The notes below the pieces were generated by a model. That model was not told where the DNA came from. It ran no database searches and worked only from the letters and a program-made list of their open reading frames with translations. Of a DNA stretch of 64,000 nt, positions 38,281-56,960 are shown in pieces; within the stretch, counting starts at the first letter, position 1, and each line of letters starts with the position of its first letter. Source of the stretch: Actinoplanes sp. L3-i22 (GTDB lineage: Bacteria; Actinomycetota; Actinomycetes; Mycobacteriales; Micromonosporaceae); NCBI RefSeq assembly GCF_019704555.1, contig NZ_AP024745.1:1293501-1357500 (forward strand), read 5' to 3'. The translations under genes and the position numbers were made by a program.

Positions 38281-39452
38281 CGTCCGGACTGGACGCCGCC
38301 GACGAGGTGCTGGACCGGATCCGGGCCACCCGGACCGAGCCGGCCACCGACCACCAGGTGGCCGCACTGGCCCTGACCGTCGCGGCGAACCTGCCGGTGC
38401 TGCTCTGGGGCGAGCCGGGAATCGGCAAGTCGGCCACCCTCGGCCAGCTCGCCGAGGGCCTGGGCGCCCCGATGGAGACCGTGATCGCCAGCGTGCACGA
38501 GCCGTCCGACTTCGCCGGCCTGCCGATCGTCGGCGACGACCCGGCGACGCAGGGCGTGCCGATGGCCCCGCCGGACTGGGCGGTCCGGCTGTCCCGGGCC
38601 GGCCGCGGCATCCTGTTCCTGGACGAGCTCTCCTCGGCGCCGCCCGCGGTCCAGGCCGCCCTGCTGCGGGTGGTCCTGGAACGCCGGGTCGGCAGCCTGT
38701 CCCTGCCGCCCTCGGTACGGATCGTCGCCGCGGCGAACCCGCCGGCCAGCGCCGCCGACGGATGGCACCTGAGCCCGCCGCTGGCCAACCGGTTCGTCCA
38801 CCTGCACTGGACGCACGACCCGCGGGTGGTCGCCCGGGGCCTGGCCGGCGTCTGGCCGCGGGCCGAGGTGCCGGTCATCGCCACCGCCCGGACGCCGAGC
38901 GCGCTGGCCCGTGCCCGCGGCGTGCTCGCCGGGTTCCTCACCGCCCGGCCCGGCCTGACCCACCACCTGCCGTCCGACGCCGAGGCCCGCGGCGGCGCCT
39001 GGCCCTCCCCGCGCACCTGGGACATGGCGCTGCGCCTGCTGGTCTTCCACTTCTGCACGAACACCGCTCGGGAGGCGCTGACCACGGCTCTGGTCGGCGC
39101 GGTCGGCGACGGCGCGGGACTGGAGCTGGCGACGTACCTCCATGAGCTTGATCTTCCTGATCCGGAACGGGTGCTGGCCGACCCGGCCGCGTTCGCCCTG
39201 CCCGACCGGGGTGACCGGCAGCTCGCCTTCCTCACCGCGGTGGTCTCCGCGATCGAGGCGTCGGTGACCCGGGAACGCTGGGAGGCGGGCTGGGTCGTGC
39301 TGGCCAAGGCGGTCGACGCCGGGGTGCCCGACGTGGCCGCCCGCGCCGCGTTCGACCTGGCCCGGATGCGCCGGCCGGACTGGCCGGTGCCGGCCTCGAT
39401 CGACGCGTTCGTCGAGGTGCTCAGCGTGTCCGGGCTGCTGGCCGGTGCCTGA
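38277..39452 (+). CDS. MoxR-type AAA+ ATPase
   Basis: 391 residues. Walker A GEPGIGKS (45-52), Walker B GILFLDELSS (111-120), sensor-1-like VRIVAAANPP and the SPPLANRF arginine-finger region identify a MoxR-group AAA+ protein. These ATPases act as chaperones on VWA partners through a metal-ion-dependent adhesion site. A matching VWA gene overlaps by eight bases downstream. Confidence 0.9.
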   Translation: MTSGLDAADEVLDRIRATRTEPATDHQVAALALTVAANLPVLLWGEPGIGKSATLGQLAEGLGAPMETVIASVHEPSDFAGLPIVGDDPATQGVPMAPPDWAVRLSRAGRGILFLDELSSAPPAVQAALLRVVLERRVGSLSLPPSVRIVAAANPPASAADGWHLSPPLANRFVHLHWTHDPRVVARGLAGVWPRAEVPVIATARTPSALARARGVLAGFLTARPGLTHHLPSDAEARGGAWPSPRTWDMALRLLVFHFCTNTAREALTTALVGAVGDGAGLELATYLHELDLPDPERVLADPAAFALPDRGDRQLAFLTAVVSAIEASVTRERWEAGWVVLAKAVDAGVPDVAARAAFDLARMRRPDWPVPASIDAFVEVLSVSGLLAGA

Positions 39453-40617
39453 CCCGGAGGTCCCGCTGGACCGGACGAAACTGCTGGCCGCCCGACTGAA
39501 AGCGGCCGGCGCCCAGCCGTACCTCGCCTCCGCCCTCTACAGCCTCACGGTGGTGCCGACGACCGCGATCGCCACGATGGCCGTCGACCGGCACTGGCGC
39601 TGCTACGTCGCCCCGGAGTTCGTCGCCGCCACGCCGGTCCCCGAACTGGCCGCGGTCTGGCTGCACGAGGCCGCACACCTGCTGCGCGACCATTTCGGGC
39701 GCGCCGAGCTGGTCCCGCCGAAGTTCGCCGGCGACCACCACCGGATCAACGTGGCCCAGGACTGCGAGATCAACGACGACATCGCCGGGCTGCCCGCCGG
39801 CGCGCTGAAGCCGGCGACGTTCGGCCTGGCCACCGGCCGCCTGTTCGAGGAGTACCTGCCCGCGATCCCGGCCACGGCCCACCATCCACAGTGCGGCTCC
39901 GGCGCCCACGGCAGCCCGATGCCCTGGGAGTCCGGCACCGCCCCACGGGTCAGCCCGGTCGAGGCGGCCGCCATCCGCCGCCAGACCGCCCAGGCGATCC
40001 GCGCGGCGGCGAAGTCCCGCGGCAACCTGCCGGGCGGCTGGCAGCGCTGGGCCGACCGGATCCTGGAGCCGGTCGTCGACTGGCGGCGCGCCCTGGCCGG
40101 CGCGGTCCGCGAGGCGGCCGCCTGGGCGGCCGGTGCGGTCGACTACACCTACCATCGCCCGTCCCGCCGGGGCGCCGCCCTGCCGCGAGTGGTCCTGCCC
40201 AGCCTGCGCCGCCCGACCGCCCGGGTCGCGGTGGTGGTCGACACGTCCGGCTCGATGGGCGACGACGAACTCACCGCGGTCCTGGCCGAGCTGTCCGGCG
40301 TCCTGCGCGCGGTCGGCATCGGCCGGGAGCGCGTCACGGTCCTCTCCTGCGACGCCGACGTCCAGACCGTCCGCCGGGTGGGCAACATCGGCGAGGTCGA
40401 ACTGGCCGGCGGCGGCGGCACCGACATGCGGGTGGGCATCGAGCACGCCCTGCGGGCCCGCCTGAAGCCGAACATCATCGTGGTCTTCACCGACGGCTAC
40501 ACCCCGTGGCCCGACCATGCCCCGGGCCAGACCCGGGTGGTGGCCGGCCTGATCGGCGCCTCCCCACCACCCCCACCCACCTGGATCGAGTCGATCCACA
40601 TCCCCGAGACCCTCTGA
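39445..40617 (+). CDS. predicted metallopeptidase-VWA protein (DUF2201-like)
   Basis: 390 residues. The N-terminal domain has HEAAHLL (74-80) and DCEINDD (106-112), a zincin-like site. The C-terminal VWA domain has the MIDAS DTSGSMGDD (266-274) and the later GGGGTDM and VVFTDGY motifs. This matches DUF2201-type proteins that pair with MoxR ATPases. GTG 39445. All three operon genes overlap, so they are translated together. Confidence 0.88.
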   Translation: MPDPEVPLDRTKLLAARLKAAGAQPYLASALYSLTVVPTTAIATMAVDRHWRCYVAPEFVAATPVPELAAVWLHEAAHLLRDHFGRAELVPPKFAGDHHRINVAQDCEINDDIAGLPAGALKPATFGLATGRLFEEYLPAIPATAHHPQCGSGAHGSPMPWESGTAPRVSPVEAAAIRRQTAQAIRAAAKSRGNLPGGWQRWADRILEPVVDWRRALAGAVREAAAWAAGAVDYTYHRPSRRGAALPRVVLPSLRRPTARVAVVVDTSGSMGDDELTAVLAELSGVLRAVGIGRERVTVLSCDADVQTVRRVGNIGEVELAGGGGTDMRVGIEHALRARLKPNIIVVFTDGYTPWPDHAPGQTRVVAGLIGASPPPPPTWIESIHIPETL

Positions 40618-41081: not shown

Positions 41082-41179
41082 GTGACAGCAAACGACCCCG
41101 GTCGAGGGAATCCCTCTGACCAGGGCCGATGCGGTGGAGCGGGCGCCGAGAATCGAACTCGCGTAATCAGTTTGGAAGA
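41082..41179. repeat. left junction: displaced tRNA-Gly 3' end and terminator (attL side)
   Basis: 98 bases homologous to 56832-56931. The first half is a decayed copy of the terminator hairpin (GTGACAGCAAACG onward). The last 43 bases (41137-41179) match the 3' part of tRNA-Gly with one difference (C at 41146, A at 56898). This is the original chromosomal 3' end pushed away by integration. Confidence 0.88.
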
Positions 41180-41438: not shown

Positions 41439-41981
41439 TCAAAATCTTGACGTGTCTTTCCTGGCTTGCTCGCGTAGGTCGTCGATCAACCCTGCGAGTA
41501 CCTCGATCTCCGCTGTCAGCCGAAATGCGTGTTGATCGCGGTCGGCATACTCCGTCGATCTGGTGGCCCGGATGTCTTCTTCGATCTTGGCAAGAGACTC
41601 GTAGGTAGCTAGCGCGGCGCGAAATACCTCCGGCCATGCTGCCAGGAGCTTTCTGAACTCTGGTGTGGTGTCGAGCTGGGACAGAGCGTCGAGAGTCGCC
41701 TGCTCACGTTCGTCTGCGATCGAGTGATCGAATGGACGGCGGGCCTCTATCGCCCGTCGCAACTCGTCTCGGACATGGGCGATCCAGGGAAGGATCTTGA
41801 GGTAGGCCTCGCGCGCACGAACCTCACGCGCGGTCCGTGCGTCGCGGGCGGCCTTGCGCCAGTCAAGGGCAAACGTCACGGCCAGAGTCGCGCCGGAGCC
41901 GAGCAGAGTGAAGCAACCCGCAATGACGGCCGTTGCCCACCATGGAGCAGCCGCAGTGGTCGGCTGCGCAAGAGAAAGCAT
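41439..41981 (-). CDS. small membrane protein, coiled-coil C-terminus
   Basis: 180 residues. One membrane helix (about 13-37, WWATAVIAGCFTLLGSGATL) is followed by a charged helical region (DARTAREVRAREAYLKIL and onward), probably coiled-coil. Its family is unknown to me. It is the outermost gene on the left of the AICE, facing attL, so it is element cargo. ATG 41981. Confidence 0.65.
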   Translation of the reverse strand: MLSLAQPTTAAAPWWATAVIAGCFTLLGSGATLAVTFALDWRKAARDARTAREVRAREAYLKILPWIAHVRDELRRAIEARRPFDHSIADEREQATLDALSQLDTTPEFRKLLAAWPEVFRAALATYESLAKIEEDIRATRSTEYADRDQHAFRLTAEIEVLAGLIDDLREQARKDTSRF

Positions 41982-42321: not shown

Positions 42322-42786
42322 ATGGCGATCCTTGTGAAGAGCTTTGCATTGGAAAGTGAGGCGGCCCGGGTGGACATTAATGAAGTTGCTACCTCTGTGG
42401 CTTCGGCATTGGCTTCATCTATGGCGACAGGCATTTGGATTTATGCTCGTGAGCGTGTGGCTCAAATCTTAGGGAATGGCGCCGAGGAGCGGGCCGTCCT
42501 GTCCGATCTGGATAATATGCAAGCTGCCCTAACTCAGGCACCGGCGGAGGAAAAGGAAAGCCTTTCTGTCATTGCTGAGGCTGAGATTCGTGGGCAGCTT
42601 AAGCACCGACTCCGACGGGATCCGAAATTTGCCGCGGAGTTCGCAGCCTTGGCGAATGAAGTGTCGCTGCGCATTTCATCGCAGCCGTCCGGAACCGTCT
42701 TTCAGCATGGGAAGTCTGAAGGAAACAGCACATTCTTTCAAGTTGGACGTGACTTTCATGGACGACTTCCTGGATCAGCTGATTAG
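42322..42786 (+). CDS. small protein with C-terminal RHIM-like motif (first gene of cargo operon)
   Basis: 154 residues. The N-terminal half has a hydrophobic helix (EVATSVASALASSMATGIWI) that may enter the membrane, then a helical AEIRGQLKHRLRRDPKFAAEFA region. The C-terminus has two FQxG cores: TVFQHG (126-130) and NSTFFQVGRDFH (135-146). This is like the (I/V)Q(V/I/L)G core of RHIM and bacterial amyloid signalling motifs. The next gene carries almost the same motif near its N-terminus. ATG 42322 lacks a good ribosome site. GC content is well below the chromosome's. Confidence 0.72.
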   Translation: MAILVKSFALESEAARVDINEVATSVASALASSMATGIWIYARERVAQILGNGAEERAVLSDLDNMQAALTQAPAEEKESLSVIAEAEIRGQLKHRLRRDPKFAAEFAALANEVSLRISSQPSGTVFQHGKSEGNSTFFQVGRDFHGRLPGSAD

Positions 42787-42795
42787 GGGATATAG

Positions 42796-44859
42796 ATGGA
42801 CTGGGCAACGGGGGATGGGCAATCGGACTTGGACCGTGACTATGAAAAAGAGGCGCGGAAAGATACTATGCTTCCCGTGCAGCTAGGAATAGCTACCGAA
42901 AATAGTACATTCTTTCAGGTTGGCGGTAGTCTCCATCAGAATCTGATTCGGTTGGTTCCTTCGATGGCTGTAGATCTTGAGGCGCGTAATGAGCTGGTGA
43001 CCTTTGAGCCACCTCCAGGGTATTGGGACGCAGTAGGGCTATTTGATGGATCTGAAGGCAATGATTCATCTGAACTTCAGGCTTCATCTTCTGTTGTCGT
43101 GCTTAAGGGGCCGGTCGGAATTGGTCGTCGAACGGCGGCGTTGGCGCTCCTCGCAAGGGATAATTCCACGGGTGAGATCCGTGAACTGCTACCGGATTGG
43201 TCGAAGCCTAGAGCCGATGTACTTCACGCAGAGCCGGGGGGACGGTATCTTCTTGATCTGACGTATGAGGAAGCCGATTTGGGAGATTTATTTTCCAAAA
43301 CCCTCCAAGAGCACGCGGCCAGGCTTGCAAAAGTGGGCGCCCGGATGGTGATCACAGTGACCCCAGATGTCTGGCGTTCATGCGAGCAGCAAACGGCCAA
43401 TTTTACCATCTTGTTGGATATTCCTGATCCGATTAATGTCGTCACTAAGCGTTTATGGGCTAGAAGTTCTGGGCACGCCATTGATGAAATAAAGGCGATT
43501 CCTCAACTCGCTAATCTGCTCCGTGATCTGATTGATAATCGTAGGCCTCCTCGGCGCGCCGTCGATCTGTCGGAAGCTCTGTCCTCTCCGAGTCAGCTAG
43601 ACCAGGAAAGTGTCGATAGGATAGTCGCTGAGTACCACCATTGGAAGGGCTTCCTTGACGAGCAACTTGGCGACGTTAAAGATGAGTCTGACCGTCAGAC
43701 CTACGCTCGGCAGCGGGCTCTTCTTATCGCCGCGTCCGTTTTGAACGGAGTGGCCGCCGACATCGTCTTTTCAGCCTCTTACGCTTTACTGGATCGTATA
43801 AAGGCATCTCCTCCGGCAGGCGAACTTCTCGTGGGCCCGGAGTTGTCAGGCCTTCTGGCACGTATACAAGCGGATCGTGCTGGCGATGCTGTCTTTTTAA
43901 CGACCAAGCATCCGGGTCTGGACAACGCAGTTCTTGATAGGGTCTGGACGGAAAGGCCTCAGCTTCGGCAAGATCTTCTTGAATGGCTTGCAGACCTAAC
44001 TACTGAGCGAGGATTGGCGTACAAGTGTATTGACCGTGTTTCTTGGGTGCTTGCCAGGATCGCTGTTGAACATAGGGCGTTGGAAGTTCTTGATGTAGTC
44101 CAGCGTTGGCTGGCCGAAGGGCGGCAACACCGGAGGCTTTCGGTATCACTACTGCAAGAACTCGCACAGAGTCGTGATATCGGATCTGCGGTTCGTCGTA
44201 AACTCTATGAGTGGGCTAATTCGAAGAACGTGCCCGTTCATGTGGGTACTGGTGTCGCTGAAGTATGCTCAGGGGAATTTGGTGTGCGATACCCTGAAAT
44301 GGCTCTTGTGCGGCTACGCTTGTTGGCTGATAGCCCTATCGGGGAAATACGATACGCTGCCTTCGGGGCAGTGCGTAAGTTGGCAAAGTCGAGTGATTTA
44401 ATCCGCAGGGCTGTAGTGCGACAAGTTTTTACTTGGGTGGTAAGTGATGCCTATCGCCAAGTCGGGAAATCAGTAAGCTTGTCGATCTTCGATCCGAGCG
44501 GCGAGGATCCCGTATTCGATGAAATTTTGAACGACGCGACTAGCGACGCGGAGATTTTTGCCAGAATTCGAGACGGATGGTTGACCCTTATTGATGACAG
44601 GGAAACCCGTCCTAAGGCGCTGGAAGTTGCTTGGCGCTGGTTGGAACAGGTCGATGACGGCAAATCAGACAGTAGTGCTGTCATTGATGTCCTGGCGCCA
44701 GCTATACGTGCGTCAATCAACCTCGATGGCGTAGGGCCATTTCTCGTTAGGTCGCCGGAAAAGGTCTCGGCCGCGAGGGAGGCGCTTCTTCTGCGGCTCG
44801 TTAGGCCCCATGCTGATGATGCCGTTGGTCATGTGTTGCGCCAGCGGGAGCCAAATTGA
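42796..44859 (+). CDS. large degenerate P-loop protein with N-terminal NSTFFQVG motif
   Basis: 687 residues. Motif NSTFFQVGGSLH at 36-47. A P-loop-like VVLKGPVGIGRRTAALALLA starts near 100; GPVGIGRRT has Arg-Arg where Lys-Thr/Ser is usual, a variant I associate with STAND-like actinobacterial NTPases. YLLDLTYEEADLGDLF and ARMVITVTPDVWR follow as likely core strands. The C-terminal 400 residues are helical, possibly superhelical repeats (RLRLLADSPIGEIRYAAFGA). ATG 42796 follows AGGGGA; nine bases separate it from the previous stop. Probable signalling ATPase; mechanism unknown. Confidence 0.75.
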   Translation: MDWATGDGQSDLDRDYEKEARKDTMLPVQLGIATENSTFFQVGGSLHQNLIRLVPSMAVDLEARNELVTFEPPPGYWDAVGLFDGSEGNDSSELQASSSVVVLKGPVGIGRRTAALALLARDNSTGEIRELLPDWSKPRADVLHAEPGGRYLLDLTYEEADLGDLFSKTLQEHAARLAKVGARMVITVTPDVWRSCEQQTANFTILLDIPDPINVVTKRLWARSSGHAIDEIKAIPQLANLLRDLIDNRRPPRRAVDLSEALSSPSQLDQESVDRIVAEYHHWKGFLDEQLGDVKDESDRQTYARQRALLIAASVLNGVAADIVFSASYALLDRIKASPPAGELLVGPELSGLLARIQADRAGDAVFLTTKHPGLDNAVLDRVWTERPQLRQDLLEWLADLTTERGLAYKCIDRVSWVLARIAVEHRALEVLDVVQRWLAEGRQHRRLSVSLLQELAQSRDIGSAVRRKLYEWANSKNVPVHVGTGVAEVCSGEFGVRYPEMALVRLRLLADSPIGEIRYAAFGAVRKLAKSSDLIRRAVVRQVFTWVVSDAYRQVGKSVSLSIFDPSGEDPVFDEILNDATSDAEIFARIRDGWLTLIDDRETRPKALEVAWRWLEQVDDGKSDSSAVIDVLAPAIRASINLDGVGPFLVRSPEKVSAAREALLLRLVRPHADDAVGHVLRQREPN

Positions 44860-45581
44860 CGGTTTGGCAAAGTGCATTAGGTTGGCTGCATGTGGCCGGA
44901 TGGCGCCGTTGCAAGATCAGCACGGCTATTGATTCTGAGGTGGATGGAGCAGTATTCAAGCTAACTGTATATGTGTTGTGGCGTAGGACTGCTGGTGAGT
45001 TGCCCGAGAGAAATTTGGCTGAAATACATGAGGCCGTGGTGAAGTCGGCTGGTGAGGCTCTGGAAATGAGCTCGGTCCTTTCTCTCCAATCCGCGGAATT
45101 GAGGGTTAGGGCTGCGTTATCCGAATTGCAGGTTAAGATCAATGCGAATAAAGTACTAGTGTTTTTTGATAGTTTTTTAGAGGCGGATGAGTATGATATT
45201 AAAATTGCATGGCGCAGTCGGCAAGAGCGGCGCGCTGTAAATGCGGCTGCTGTTAATGAGATGGCGCGCTTGAAGTTCCTAAGAGATGAAGTGTTCGCGG
45301 ACTCACTGCTGGCTCGTATTTGGTGGATGCAGCAACGGCCTGAGCTGGTGTCATCTATTGGTAATAGTGTATTTCTTGAAGCAGTGACGGCGGCTACCGC
45401 GCGCGAAGAGGCTGATGGATATGAGAGCGAAGGGCTGTTAGAGTTCCTGCGAGAATTTACGCAGTGGCTCAAGAGCGGAGATGCTCGCGCTGACATGACA
45501 ATCAGCCTTTTCGATAGCCTGTTGGCAACACTGCGAGAGGACGATCTGCGCGATTCTTTGCAGCGTGGTTTCTCCAAGTAG
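44856..45581 (+). CDS. unknown protein, third gene of cargo operon
   Basis: 241 residues. I recognise no family. An N-terminal beta-rich part (FKLTVYVLWRR, then IHEAVVKSAGEALEM) is followed by long helices and a C-terminal helical region (LLEFLREFTQWLKSGD). No signal peptide or membrane helix. TTG 44856 overlaps the stop of the P-loop gene (TTGA) with GGGAG upstream, so it is translationally coupled and should act with that protein. Same low GC as its partners. Confidence 0.7.
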   Translation: MTVWQSALGWLHVAGWRRCKISTAIDSEVDGAVFKLTVYVLWRRTAGELPERNLAEIHEAVVKSAGEALEMSSVLSLQSAELRVRAALSELQVKINANKVLVFFDSFLEADEYDIKIAWRSRQERRAVNAAAVNEMARLKFLRDEVFADSLLARIWWMQQRPELVSSIGNSVFLEAVTAATAREEADGYESEGLLEFLREFTQWLKSGDARADMTISLFDSLLATLREDDLRDSLQRGFSK

Positions 45582-45615: not shown

Positions 45616-46098
45616 TCAGCTGTTGGAGGCAAGCGGGTCATTTCCGTGCTCCGCATACGCAGGTATTCCACGATCTCGCGCAATGATTGCAGTATGAATT
45701 CGGCGGTATAGCCGTTCAGGGAGGTGTTTCTCTATCTCGGTGCGCTCCACGAAGCGCCATTCTGTTAGCTCTCCGTCGCGGAAGTTAATGCTATTTTGTA
45801 TTGCTTCTGGCAGAATGCCTGCATCGAAGACGAAGAGCATTTTGTCGCCTTCTGCCTCTGCTGGTGCCCAATCGATGACAAGAAGGCTTCCTGCTGCCTG
45901 GAGCAGGCCTAGTTCTTCTTGGACCTCGCGGATGCATGCAGCTCTAGGCGATTCGCCCGGCTCGACGTAACCGCCGGGGATGTCCCAACCCGCCTTATAC
46001 GCAGGCTTTACGAGCAGAACGCGTCCGGCTTCATCGAAGAAGAGGGCGCCGGCGGCGACGCGAGGAGTGGCCATCGGGGGTGTGTCGGATGTCGTCAC
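45616..46098 (-). CDS. Nudix hydrolase
   Basis: 160 residues. The Nudix box is complete: GGYVEPGESPRAACIREV, then QEELGL. It should cleave a nucleoside diphosphate linked to another moiety. In pSAM2 the transfer-immunity factor Pif contains a Nudix motif, so entry exclusion is a possible role here; that is inference. GTG 46098; ATG 46074 is an in-frame alternative. Convergent to the cargo operon and downstream of the XRE gene. Confidence 0.85.
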   Translation of the reverse strand: MTTSDTPPMATPRVAAGALFFDEAGRVLLVKPAYKAGWDIPGGYVEPGESPRAACIREVQEELGLLQAAGSLLVIDWAPAEAEGDKMLFVFDAGILPEAIQNSINFRDGELTEWRFVERTEIEKHLPERLYRRIHTAIIARDRGIPAYAEHGNDPLASNS

Positions 46099-49667: not shown

Positions 49668-50701
49668 GGGCGTGTTTTAGAAGTTGGGTTTTGCCGGTGA
49701 GGGTCACGGCGTGGCGGTCATCGATAACTGAAGAGGTCTCCGGTAAGTGGTTCAGCGACCAAGCTAGAACTTCATACCGGAGACCTCGTGGCCACCTTAG
49801 CGGTGACGACGCGGCATGACCTCACCGACGCTCAGTGGCAGCGGCTTGCTCCGTTGCTGCCTGCTGTGTCGGGGAACGGGCGGCCGCCGAAGTGGACGAA
49901 ACGGCAGCTCATCAACGGGATCCGCTGGCGGATCCGGAACGGGGTTCCGTGGCGGGACGTCGCCGCCGTCTATCCGCCCTGGCCTACCGTCTATGGACTG
50001 TTTCGCCGCTGGCAACGCGACGGCACCTGGGACAGCATCCTGGCCGCTCTGCAGGCCCATGCCGATGCGGCCGGCCGGATCCGCTGGGACATCAGCATCG
50101 ACTCGATGACCAGCCGCGCCCATCAGCACGCGGCCGGTGCTCGCCGCGACGGGCAGTTGCAGAAGGAACCGCCCGGCGGCGTGCACACCGAACCTGATGA
50201 TCACGGCCTGGGGCGGTCGCGGGGCGGGTTGACCACCAAGACGCATCTGGCCTGTGAGCAGGGGCAGAAGGTCATGGCGTTCATCGTGACCGCCGGGCAG
50301 TGCGGGGACAGTCCGCAGTTCATCCCGGTCCTGTCCAGGATCCGGGTCGGCCGGCCCGGCGGTGGCCGGCCCCGGACCCGCCCCGACACGGTCCTCGCCG
50401 ACAAGGCCTACACCTCGAAAGAAAACCGTTCCTACCTGCGTAAACGCGGAATCCGGGCGTGCATTCCCAGCAAGAGTGACCAGGACGCCCACCGCAAAGC
50501 CAAAGGCCGCAAAGGCGGCCGGCCACCCGCTTTCGACCGGCTCGTCTACCGGCAACGCCACGCCGTCGAATGCGGCATCAACCGCCTCAAACGCCACCGC
50601 GGCGTCGCGACCCGCTACGACAAACTTGCCGTCCGCTACCAGGCAGTTCTGACCATCACCATCATCTGCGAGTGGCTCTGACCTGCTTATGAAACACGCC
50701 C
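49668..50701 (+). mobile_element. IS5-family insertion sequence
   Basis: Terminal inverted repeats GGGCGTGTTT (49668-49677) and AAACACGCCC (50692-50701), with TA duplicated on both sides (49666-49667, 50702-50703). About 1034 bp with one transposase gene. It lies in an intergenic gap of the AICE, upstream of the pra operator, so it probably left element functions intact. Confidence 0.88.
49788..50681 (+). CDS. IS5-family transposase
   Basis: 297 residues in a single uninterrupted frame. N-terminal [14 protein letters not shown] and [20 protein letters not shown] belong to the DUF4096 helix region. The DDE residues are D in ISIDSM, D in VLADKAYTS and E in [12 protein letters not shown]. No frameshift is needed, unlike many relatives split in two. 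It is probably active. GTG 49788. Confidence 0.9.
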
Positions 50702-56831: not shown

Positions 56832-56931
56832 GTGACAGCAAACGGCCCTGGTCGGGGGAAATCCCCTCTGACCAGGGCCGTTGTAGTTGAGCGGGCGACG
56901 AGAATCGAACTCGCGTAATCAGTTTGGAAGA
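56832..56931. repeat. right junction (attR side): element-supplied tRNA 3' end and terminator
   Basis: 100 bases homologous to 41082-41179. The last 43 (56889-56931) are the att core within tRNA-Gly. The core runs from the tRNA 3' end through the anticodon loop, so the element restores a complete tRNA on insertion. Confidence 0.88.
56841..56882. terminator. strong hairpin after tRNA-Gly
   Basis: A perfect 13-bp stem AACGGCCCTGGTC / GACCAGGGCCGTT (56841-56853, 56870-56882) lies just past the tRNA-Gly 3' end and after int. It can terminate both. Its left-junction relative (41091-41130) is decayed. Confidence 0.75.
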
Positions 56932-56960
56932 CTGAGGCTCTACCATTGAGCTACGCCCGC
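56890..56960 (-). tRNA. tRNA-Gly (TCC)
   Basis: 71 bases without CCA. Acceptor GCGGGCG pairs with CGCCCGC; anticodon arm TCAGT-CTTCCAA-ACTGA gives anticodon TCC (reads GGA). The T-loop is TTCGATT. Its 3' 43 bases form the att core of the AICE. The cloverleaf is intact. Confidence 0.95.

Follow-up and report, generated by a model that had tools for sequence, protein, structure and literature searches.

Matching sequence tags pair a pseudo-P-loop STAND-like protein with interchangeable upstream partners in a family of actinobacterial three-gene operons

The subject of this study is a three-gene operon, P1-P2-P3, at positions 42322 to 45581 of a 64,000-nucleotide stretch of the Actinoplanes sp. 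L3-i22 genome (assembly GCF_019704555.1, contig NZ_AP024745.1, forward-strand positions 1,293,501 to 1,357,500); the whole stretch is referred to here as the window. The operon is carried near one end of an actinomycete integrative and conjugative element (AICE). It encodes a small putative effector, a larger putative receptor, and a third protein, and a short matching segment, here called the tag, is found at the C-terminus of the first protein and at the N-terminus of the second. The features of the operon, in window coordinates, are as follows.

42322..42786, plus strand: P1, small helical-bundle protein with a C-terminal tag, putative effector (open reading frame, bundle model)
42700..42762, plus strand: effector-side tag FQHGKSEGNSTFFQVGRDFHG at the C-terminus of P1 (sequence, alignment)
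42796..44859, plus strand: P2, STAND/AAA+-like protein with a pseudo-P-loop and C-terminal helical (probably HEAT-type) repeats, putative receptor
42877..42939, plus strand: receptor-side tag VQLGIATENSTFFQVGGSLHQ at the N-terminus of P2 (two strands, residues 28-34 and 37-43, in a low-confidence model)
43108..43134, plus strand: degenerate Walker A motif of P2, GPVGIGRRT, with K replaced by R
44856..45581, plus strand: P3, conserved third component with no fold assigned, overlapping P2 by TTGA

The original prediction, made from the letters of the window alone, held that the two adjacent proteins share an NSTFFQVG motif, that the larger one carries a degenerate P-loop, and that the third gene is coupled to the second by a TTGA overlap. 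All three features were located: in GPVGIGRRT the Walker A lysine is missing, P3 starts at a TTG inside TTGA, and the eight-residue core NSTFFQVG, common to the C-terminus of P1 and the N-terminus of P2, is encoded at 42724-42747 and 42901-42924. The two copies of the core differ at 4 of 24 bases, all synonymously. A degenerate (IUPAC) nucleotide pattern spanning both copies, with up to two mismatches allowed, hit these two sites alone in the window and none in 100 shuffles. Local alignment of the P1 tail with the P2 head gave a score of 53, which was reached by 0 of 500 shuffles and 0 of 86 dissimilar partners. In each window tag, the two Q residues of an xQxG...xQxG arrangement are 12 residues apart.

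Relatives of P2 were sought with a 12-row profile (E ≤ 1e-5) in 354 genomes of the same family and 296 of the same class. P2-like matches were present in 126 of the 354 and 43 of the 296, counts in which the window's own genome is included and many of the matches are weak or partial; a P2 search gave matches in 34 of 200 genomes of relatives. The 130 stretches with a match, window included, reduced to 95 distinct loci, from which five below 100 bits were dropped, leaving 90, and then another five without a usable upstream open reading frame (ORF), leaving 85 for a pairing test. In this test the last 50 residues of the upstream ORF were aligned to the N-terminus of the P2-like protein, and shuffled tails served for comparison; the upstream ORF was picked by coding score, not by similarity, except in the window, where P1 was set by hand, and P-loop positions were taken from the profile alignment. 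It had been predicted that the motif would recur in matched, co-varying pairs in homologous operons, and this expectation was borne out: the upstream tail paired with its own P2-like partner at p ≤ 0.01 in 59 of the 85 loci, against 0 of 85 for the first 50 residues of the effector, 1 of 71 for an internal segment, 2 of 78 for the C-terminus of P3, and 1 of 85 for P2's own C-terminus. Median pairing scores were 47 for native and 25 for foreign tails (Wilcoxon 3e-15; 85 loci), and pairing held in 27 of 44 representatives whose P2-like proteins are less than 40% identical. An earlier version of the test had paired 57 of 90 loci, the native partner being the best of all dissimilar ones in 37 of the 90, window included. 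Tag pairing between neighbors is not due to chance.

The paired sequences themselves vary from locus to locus. In G015, the closest relative (45% identical), the three genes recur and the tags, though altered, still agree with each other: the small protein has ...STFIQVGHD... and its P2-like neighbor has ...STLIQVGHD.... Other locus-specific pairs are NIYSGRDTN with NIYSEGDTN and GQVAGTVSGGMHQ with GQVAGVVYGGLHQ. At the level of sequence, then, the tag type changes together at both genes.

The gene upstream of P2 encodes proteins of six types. Two are small and helical, a bundle like P1 (small type A) and a second form (type B); the others are cyclase-like, TIR, Mrr-type, and DUF4145 proteins. 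Classes were assigned by regular expressions and hand labels, which left 3 of the 85 loci unlabeled; the other 82 comprise 44 cyclase-like, 15 small type A, 11 TIR, 7 small type B, 3 Mrr-type, and 2 DUF4145 loci. Pfam confirmed TIR_2, Mrr_cat, and DUF4145 in one representative each, and a six-row cyclase-like profile matched the Ma1120 cyclase (E 8e-5), its best six PDB matches all being cyclases. When the six effector classes are mapped on a tree of 82 P2-like cores, 8 changes are needed (minimum, 5), and in the window's nine-row clade the slot is filled by small type A, Mrr-type, and DUF4145 proteins. We conclude that the upstream effector domain is interchangeable. Within a class, native scores exceeded foreign ones among cyclase-like proteins (Wilcoxon 2e-8, with two Mrr-type proteins, L101 and L102, counted as cyclase-like) and among small proteins (3e-5), and small type A, the window's own subclass, paired significantly in 11 of 15 loci.

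The tag had been described as RHIM-like, and this description stood in part. FFQVG in the window core fits φ-Q-φ-G, φ being a hydrophobic residue, without a leading G. In the excerpts available of the relevant papers, the RHIM/BASS3 core is given as G-φ-Q-φ-G (PMC7885112), with two conserved Q, Q113 and Q120, at a spacing of seven residues (PMC9815663). The window tags depart from that core in their missing first G; a Q at +7 is present in the P2 tag (QVGGSLHQ), as in the BASS3 peptide VDLRDAKGVQVGDGNVQINRF (excerpt of PMC8086366), and absent from the P1 tag (QVGRDFHG). Across the 12-row alignment A2, G142 is invariant and D144 nearly so, but conservation does not extend to the Q of the RHIM-like core. 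The RHIM likeness is local, because sister operons carry other sequences at the same place (...IYSGRDT..., ...NTAGRDN..., ...IISGGDA...), AGRD-like segments that keep G and mostly D, not Q. As judged from these alignments, the RHIM-like label does not extend beyond the window and its closest kin. For BASS2, the excerpt of PMC9815663 mentions a C-terminal ARD triplet, so the tags may be related to BASS2 or to BASS3.

P2 models as an AAA+/STAND-like protein in which the P-loop NTPase fold is present, probably followed by C-terminal helical repeats of the HEAT type. At the position of the Walker A lysine, 66 of 87 aligned relatives have R and 6 have K; P2 itself has R. P2-like proteins have an N-terminal tag, an AAA+/STAND-type P-loop domain whose lysine is usually replaced, and probable helical repeats. 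Neither P2 nor the other 11 rows of alignment A1 gave NB-ARC or NACHT matches in Pfam at E ≤ 0.1, a result compatible with a remote relation. Several P2 relatives have weak nSTAND3 similarity; at the curated cutoff P2 gave no match, and the best relative, P0012, reached 26.5 bits against 27.2, PF20720 being listed for P0012 in the protein database's own annotation. An Avs5 filament was among the structural matches of P2. By these models and the nSTAND3 similarity of its relatives, P2 looks STAND/NLR-like, in agreement with the NLR-like protein first proposed. A second, weak P2-like match (L140, G000:C1:1032261-1032671; E 1e-9) lies in an 890-residue frame elsewhere in the same genome.

The model of P1, built from nine sequences, is a compact bundle with block-mean predicted local distance difference test (pLDDT) values of at least 90 over residues 21-120; the tail, residues 125-154, is below 50 and disordered. 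Eight database relatives of P1 (alignment A4) lack 12 to 15 residues of its N-terminal part, so the GTG at 42370 may be the true start. P1 and four relatives gave no convincing Pfam match, the libraries searched having no known Bell profile.

A P3-like gene comes next in 82 of 90 loci, with a weak match in two of these (L083 and L092), as counted with an iterated profile on downstream ORFs that was trained on the same locus set. A single-sequence P3 search matched 20 of the 354 genomes, its own included, and by coordinate comparison each of the 20 matches has a P2-like match upstream of it on the same strand, no more than 0.9 kb away. Its presence in 82 of 90 loci makes P3 look like a core component. 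The original prediction had left the third protein unexplained; it still has no known fold or family, and it is a conserved third gene rather than a peculiarity of the window.

Two kinds of known system offer precedents for such coupling. Dyrka et al. (2020) reportedly described BASS/Bell-NLR amyloid signaling pairs. In the available excerpts of four papers (PMC7889193, PMC8086366, PMC9815663, and PMC12261475), BASS pairs are adjacent genes, one for a small helical protein (less often a CHAT or TIR protein) with a short C-terminal tag and the other for an NLR-like protein that bears the matching tag at its N-terminus. The operons studied here resemble these pairs in their matching effector C-terminal and receptor N-terminal tags encoded side by side, in their many tag families, and in their occurrence in filamentous actinobacteria. 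As far as the excerpts go, they differ in that NB-ARC and NACHT matches are absent from the P2 family and its Walker A lysine is mostly lost, in the conserved third gene, and in partners that include cyclase-like, Mrr-type, and DUF4145 proteins. The second precedent is EAD coupling in conflict systems of multicellular bacteria, where the same adaptor is found on a core and a neighboring effector (excerpts of PMC7159879 and PMC8195603). A locus-specific adaptor copy on the core and an interchangeable effector, as in the EAD-coupled systems of Kaur et al. 2020 (PMC7159879), are found here too; the tags, however, are short and modeled with low confidence in P1 and P2, and they appear not to be folded EADs. 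The iSTAND ternary systems of the same paper likewise have an inactive STAND-type core, but the window operon has no MoxR or vWA gene, and the available part of the paper states that iSTAND systems are almost entirely absent from actinobacteria. A VWA-like gene at 39445-40617 lies outside the AICE and is not part of the operon. With the Avs5/nSTAND3 antiphage receptors, as excerpted from PMC12931631, the family shares an NTPase with, probably, C-terminal repeats and the weak nSTAND3 similarity of P2 relatives; Avs5 contains its own Sir2 effector domain and depends on the Walker A lysine, whereas here the effector is separate and the lysine is gone. A literature search whose coverage left out most subscription papers returned no description of this three-gene family.

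The EAD precedent raises the possibility that the tags are non-amyloid and form a short homotypic contact, such as a β-strand pair or clamp, holding P1 and P2 in a stable complex in which P2 regulates P1 as EADs do. Homotypic docking of this kind, which is known from multicellular-bacterial conflict systems (excerpt of PMC7159879), leads to the same sequence pattern as amyloid templating, and any homotypic contact would account for the pairing data just as well. EADs, however, are small folded domains, whereas the tags are about 15 to 25 residues long and are disordered or form two short strands in low-confidence parts of the models; the tags are also rich in G, N, Q, and β formers, like the bacterial signaling-amyloid peptides in the available part of PMC8086366. 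We therefore regard docking as possible but rather unlikely. By analogy with BASS pairs, amyloid templating would be the best-supported mechanism of signaling, and we consider it fairly probable that the operon belongs to an actinobacterial family of BASS/EAD-style receptor-effector systems that act through an amyloid-like signalosome and have a pseudo-P-loop receptor and a conserved third protein.

Under such a mechanism, P2 would keep its tag apart or buried until a trigger, probably an invading phage or element, reaches the repeat region. Triggered P2 would then cluster; since the Walker A lysine is missing, the release would probably be driven by a ligand or by conformation, not by hydrolysis of ATP. 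The exposed tags would nucleate a β-arch (amyloid-like) polymer that recruits and templates the tag of the operon's own partner only, and the crowded P1 bundle might turn active, most likely damaging the membrane or another vital target, with dormancy or death as the presumed outcome. P3 could be a constant adaptor or brake acting on P2.

Several results weigh against this account. Pairing was not significant in 26 of the 85 loci, among them 5 of the 11 TIR loci and all seven of small type B, and the within-class test for TIR proteins, with three of nine loci testable, gave no excess (p 0.63). None of the seven small type B loci reached p ≤ 0.01, with two at p 0.04-0.05; in this clade (L058, L059, L069, L071, L108, L127, and L052) either the coupling is different or the tags are beyond the reach of the test. 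The control with the first 50 residues of the effector had a slight overall excess (medians of 23 and 22; Wilcoxon p 0.011). A search with the P1 model gave no convincing structural neighbor, and P1 has no clear membrane helix: its maximal Kyte-Doolittle mean over 17 residues is 1.33, where 15 other small effectors span 0.9 to 1.77. The hydrophobic N-terminal helix first ascribed to P1 is thus only weakly hydrophobic, and membrane attack by P1 is for that reason a guess. In the searches made, no solved structure, fold, or family accounted for P3. Finally, identical tag residues share a codon in 421 of 731 cases, against 349 expected from the locus's own usage.

Given this same-codon excess, recent duplication or conversion may account for part of the tag identity. 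Taken further, matching tags could be products of such events between neighbors and have no functional meaning, a view with which the near identity of the window tags also agrees. Yet 310 of the 731 identical residues have different codons, every base difference in the window core is synonymous, and pairing is kept among loci whose P2-like proteins have diverged below 40% identity; we consider this explanation highly improbable. By the same test of codon use, gene conversion was judged insufficient as the only source of the matching tags.

The setting of the operon agrees with the carriage on an AICE and the low G+C content that the original prediction had pointed out. AICE hallmarks are att repeats at a tRNA gene, a tyrosine integrase, an excisionase, a RepSA-type initiator, and an FtsK-type transfer protein. 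The ends of the element here are marked by a 100-nucleotide repeat.

41082..41179, plus strand: attL-like repeat of the AICE, 89% identical to 56832-56931
56832..56931, plus strand: attR-like repeat of the AICE, overlapping the 3' part of tRNA-Gly (56889-56960, minus strand)

Integrase, HTH_17, RepSA, FtsK, and GntR families are encoded between the repeats, so that the hallmark set is present, with the 72-residue HTH_17 protein beside the integrase as the putative excisionase. As low-GC cargo, the operon sits within the element 1.1 kb from one of its ends: G+C content is 0.53-0.55 over 42-46 kb and mostly 0.65-0.78 in the surroundings. A RepSA match within 20 kb of a P2-like gene was seen in 4 of 20 genomes tested (G000, G344, G387, and, as a fragment, G074), a count limited by contig ends. 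Between attL and the operon, divergent to P1, is a 180-residue ORF (41439-41981, minus strand) with one N-terminal hydrophobic stretch by eye and no Pfam match at E ≤ 0.001. Just past P3 and convergent with it is a gene for a Nudix protein (45616-46098, minus strand), in a region that is also low in G+C; a Nudix gene (Pra) is typical of pSAM2-like AICEs. An IS5-like transposase (DUF4096, DDE_Tnp_1) lies at 49788-50681 within the AICE, between the regulator and transfer genes.

Defense is a role that we infer from the partner types, the patchy presence, and AICE carriage. The partner slot holds domains known from conflict systems (TIR, Mrr_cat, DUF4145, and cyclase-like), and the operon may act through amyloid formation and membrane attack in phage defense. 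PADLOC-DB 2.0.0 profiles gave no convincing match to P1, P2, or P3 (best, ZorC, E 0.0036 over 56 residues). In two relatives, P0012 and P0013, the P2-like region stands behind SARP-type BTAD and Trans_reg_C annotations, a receptor core joined to a transcription activator. These fusions would fit a regulator or developmental switch instead, with SARP-fused relatives working in transcription and the cyclase-like partner, at 44 of 82 loci the commonest class, making a second messenger. Conflict is the better fit to the scattered distribution (126 of 354 same-family genomes, the window's own among them), to the swapping of partners for TIR, nuclease-type, and DUF4145 proteins, and to the location on an AICE; a purely regulatory role seems to us unlikely.

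Taken together, the data suggest a little-known bacterial immune or cell-suicide system. We see about an even chance that it represents an undescribed, widespread three-component immune family of actinobacteria, in which a co-evolving amyloid-like "zip code" on a pseudo-P-loop STAND receptor would pick its effector from an interchangeable set (helical bundle, cyclase, TIR, nuclease, or DUF4145) and the P3 family would set the threshold. Amyloid-type signaling connects animal necroptosis, fungal incompatibility, and, mostly by prediction so far, bacteria. If the proposal is true, the diversity of tags would keep several such systems apart from one another within a cell or community. It would assign a conserved third gene to a system of this kind, and it poses the question of how a STAND-like receptor can function when its Walker A lysine is gone. 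Receptor, tag, and effector vary independently of one another across the family, a natural series that makes tag specificity and effector swapping directly testable.

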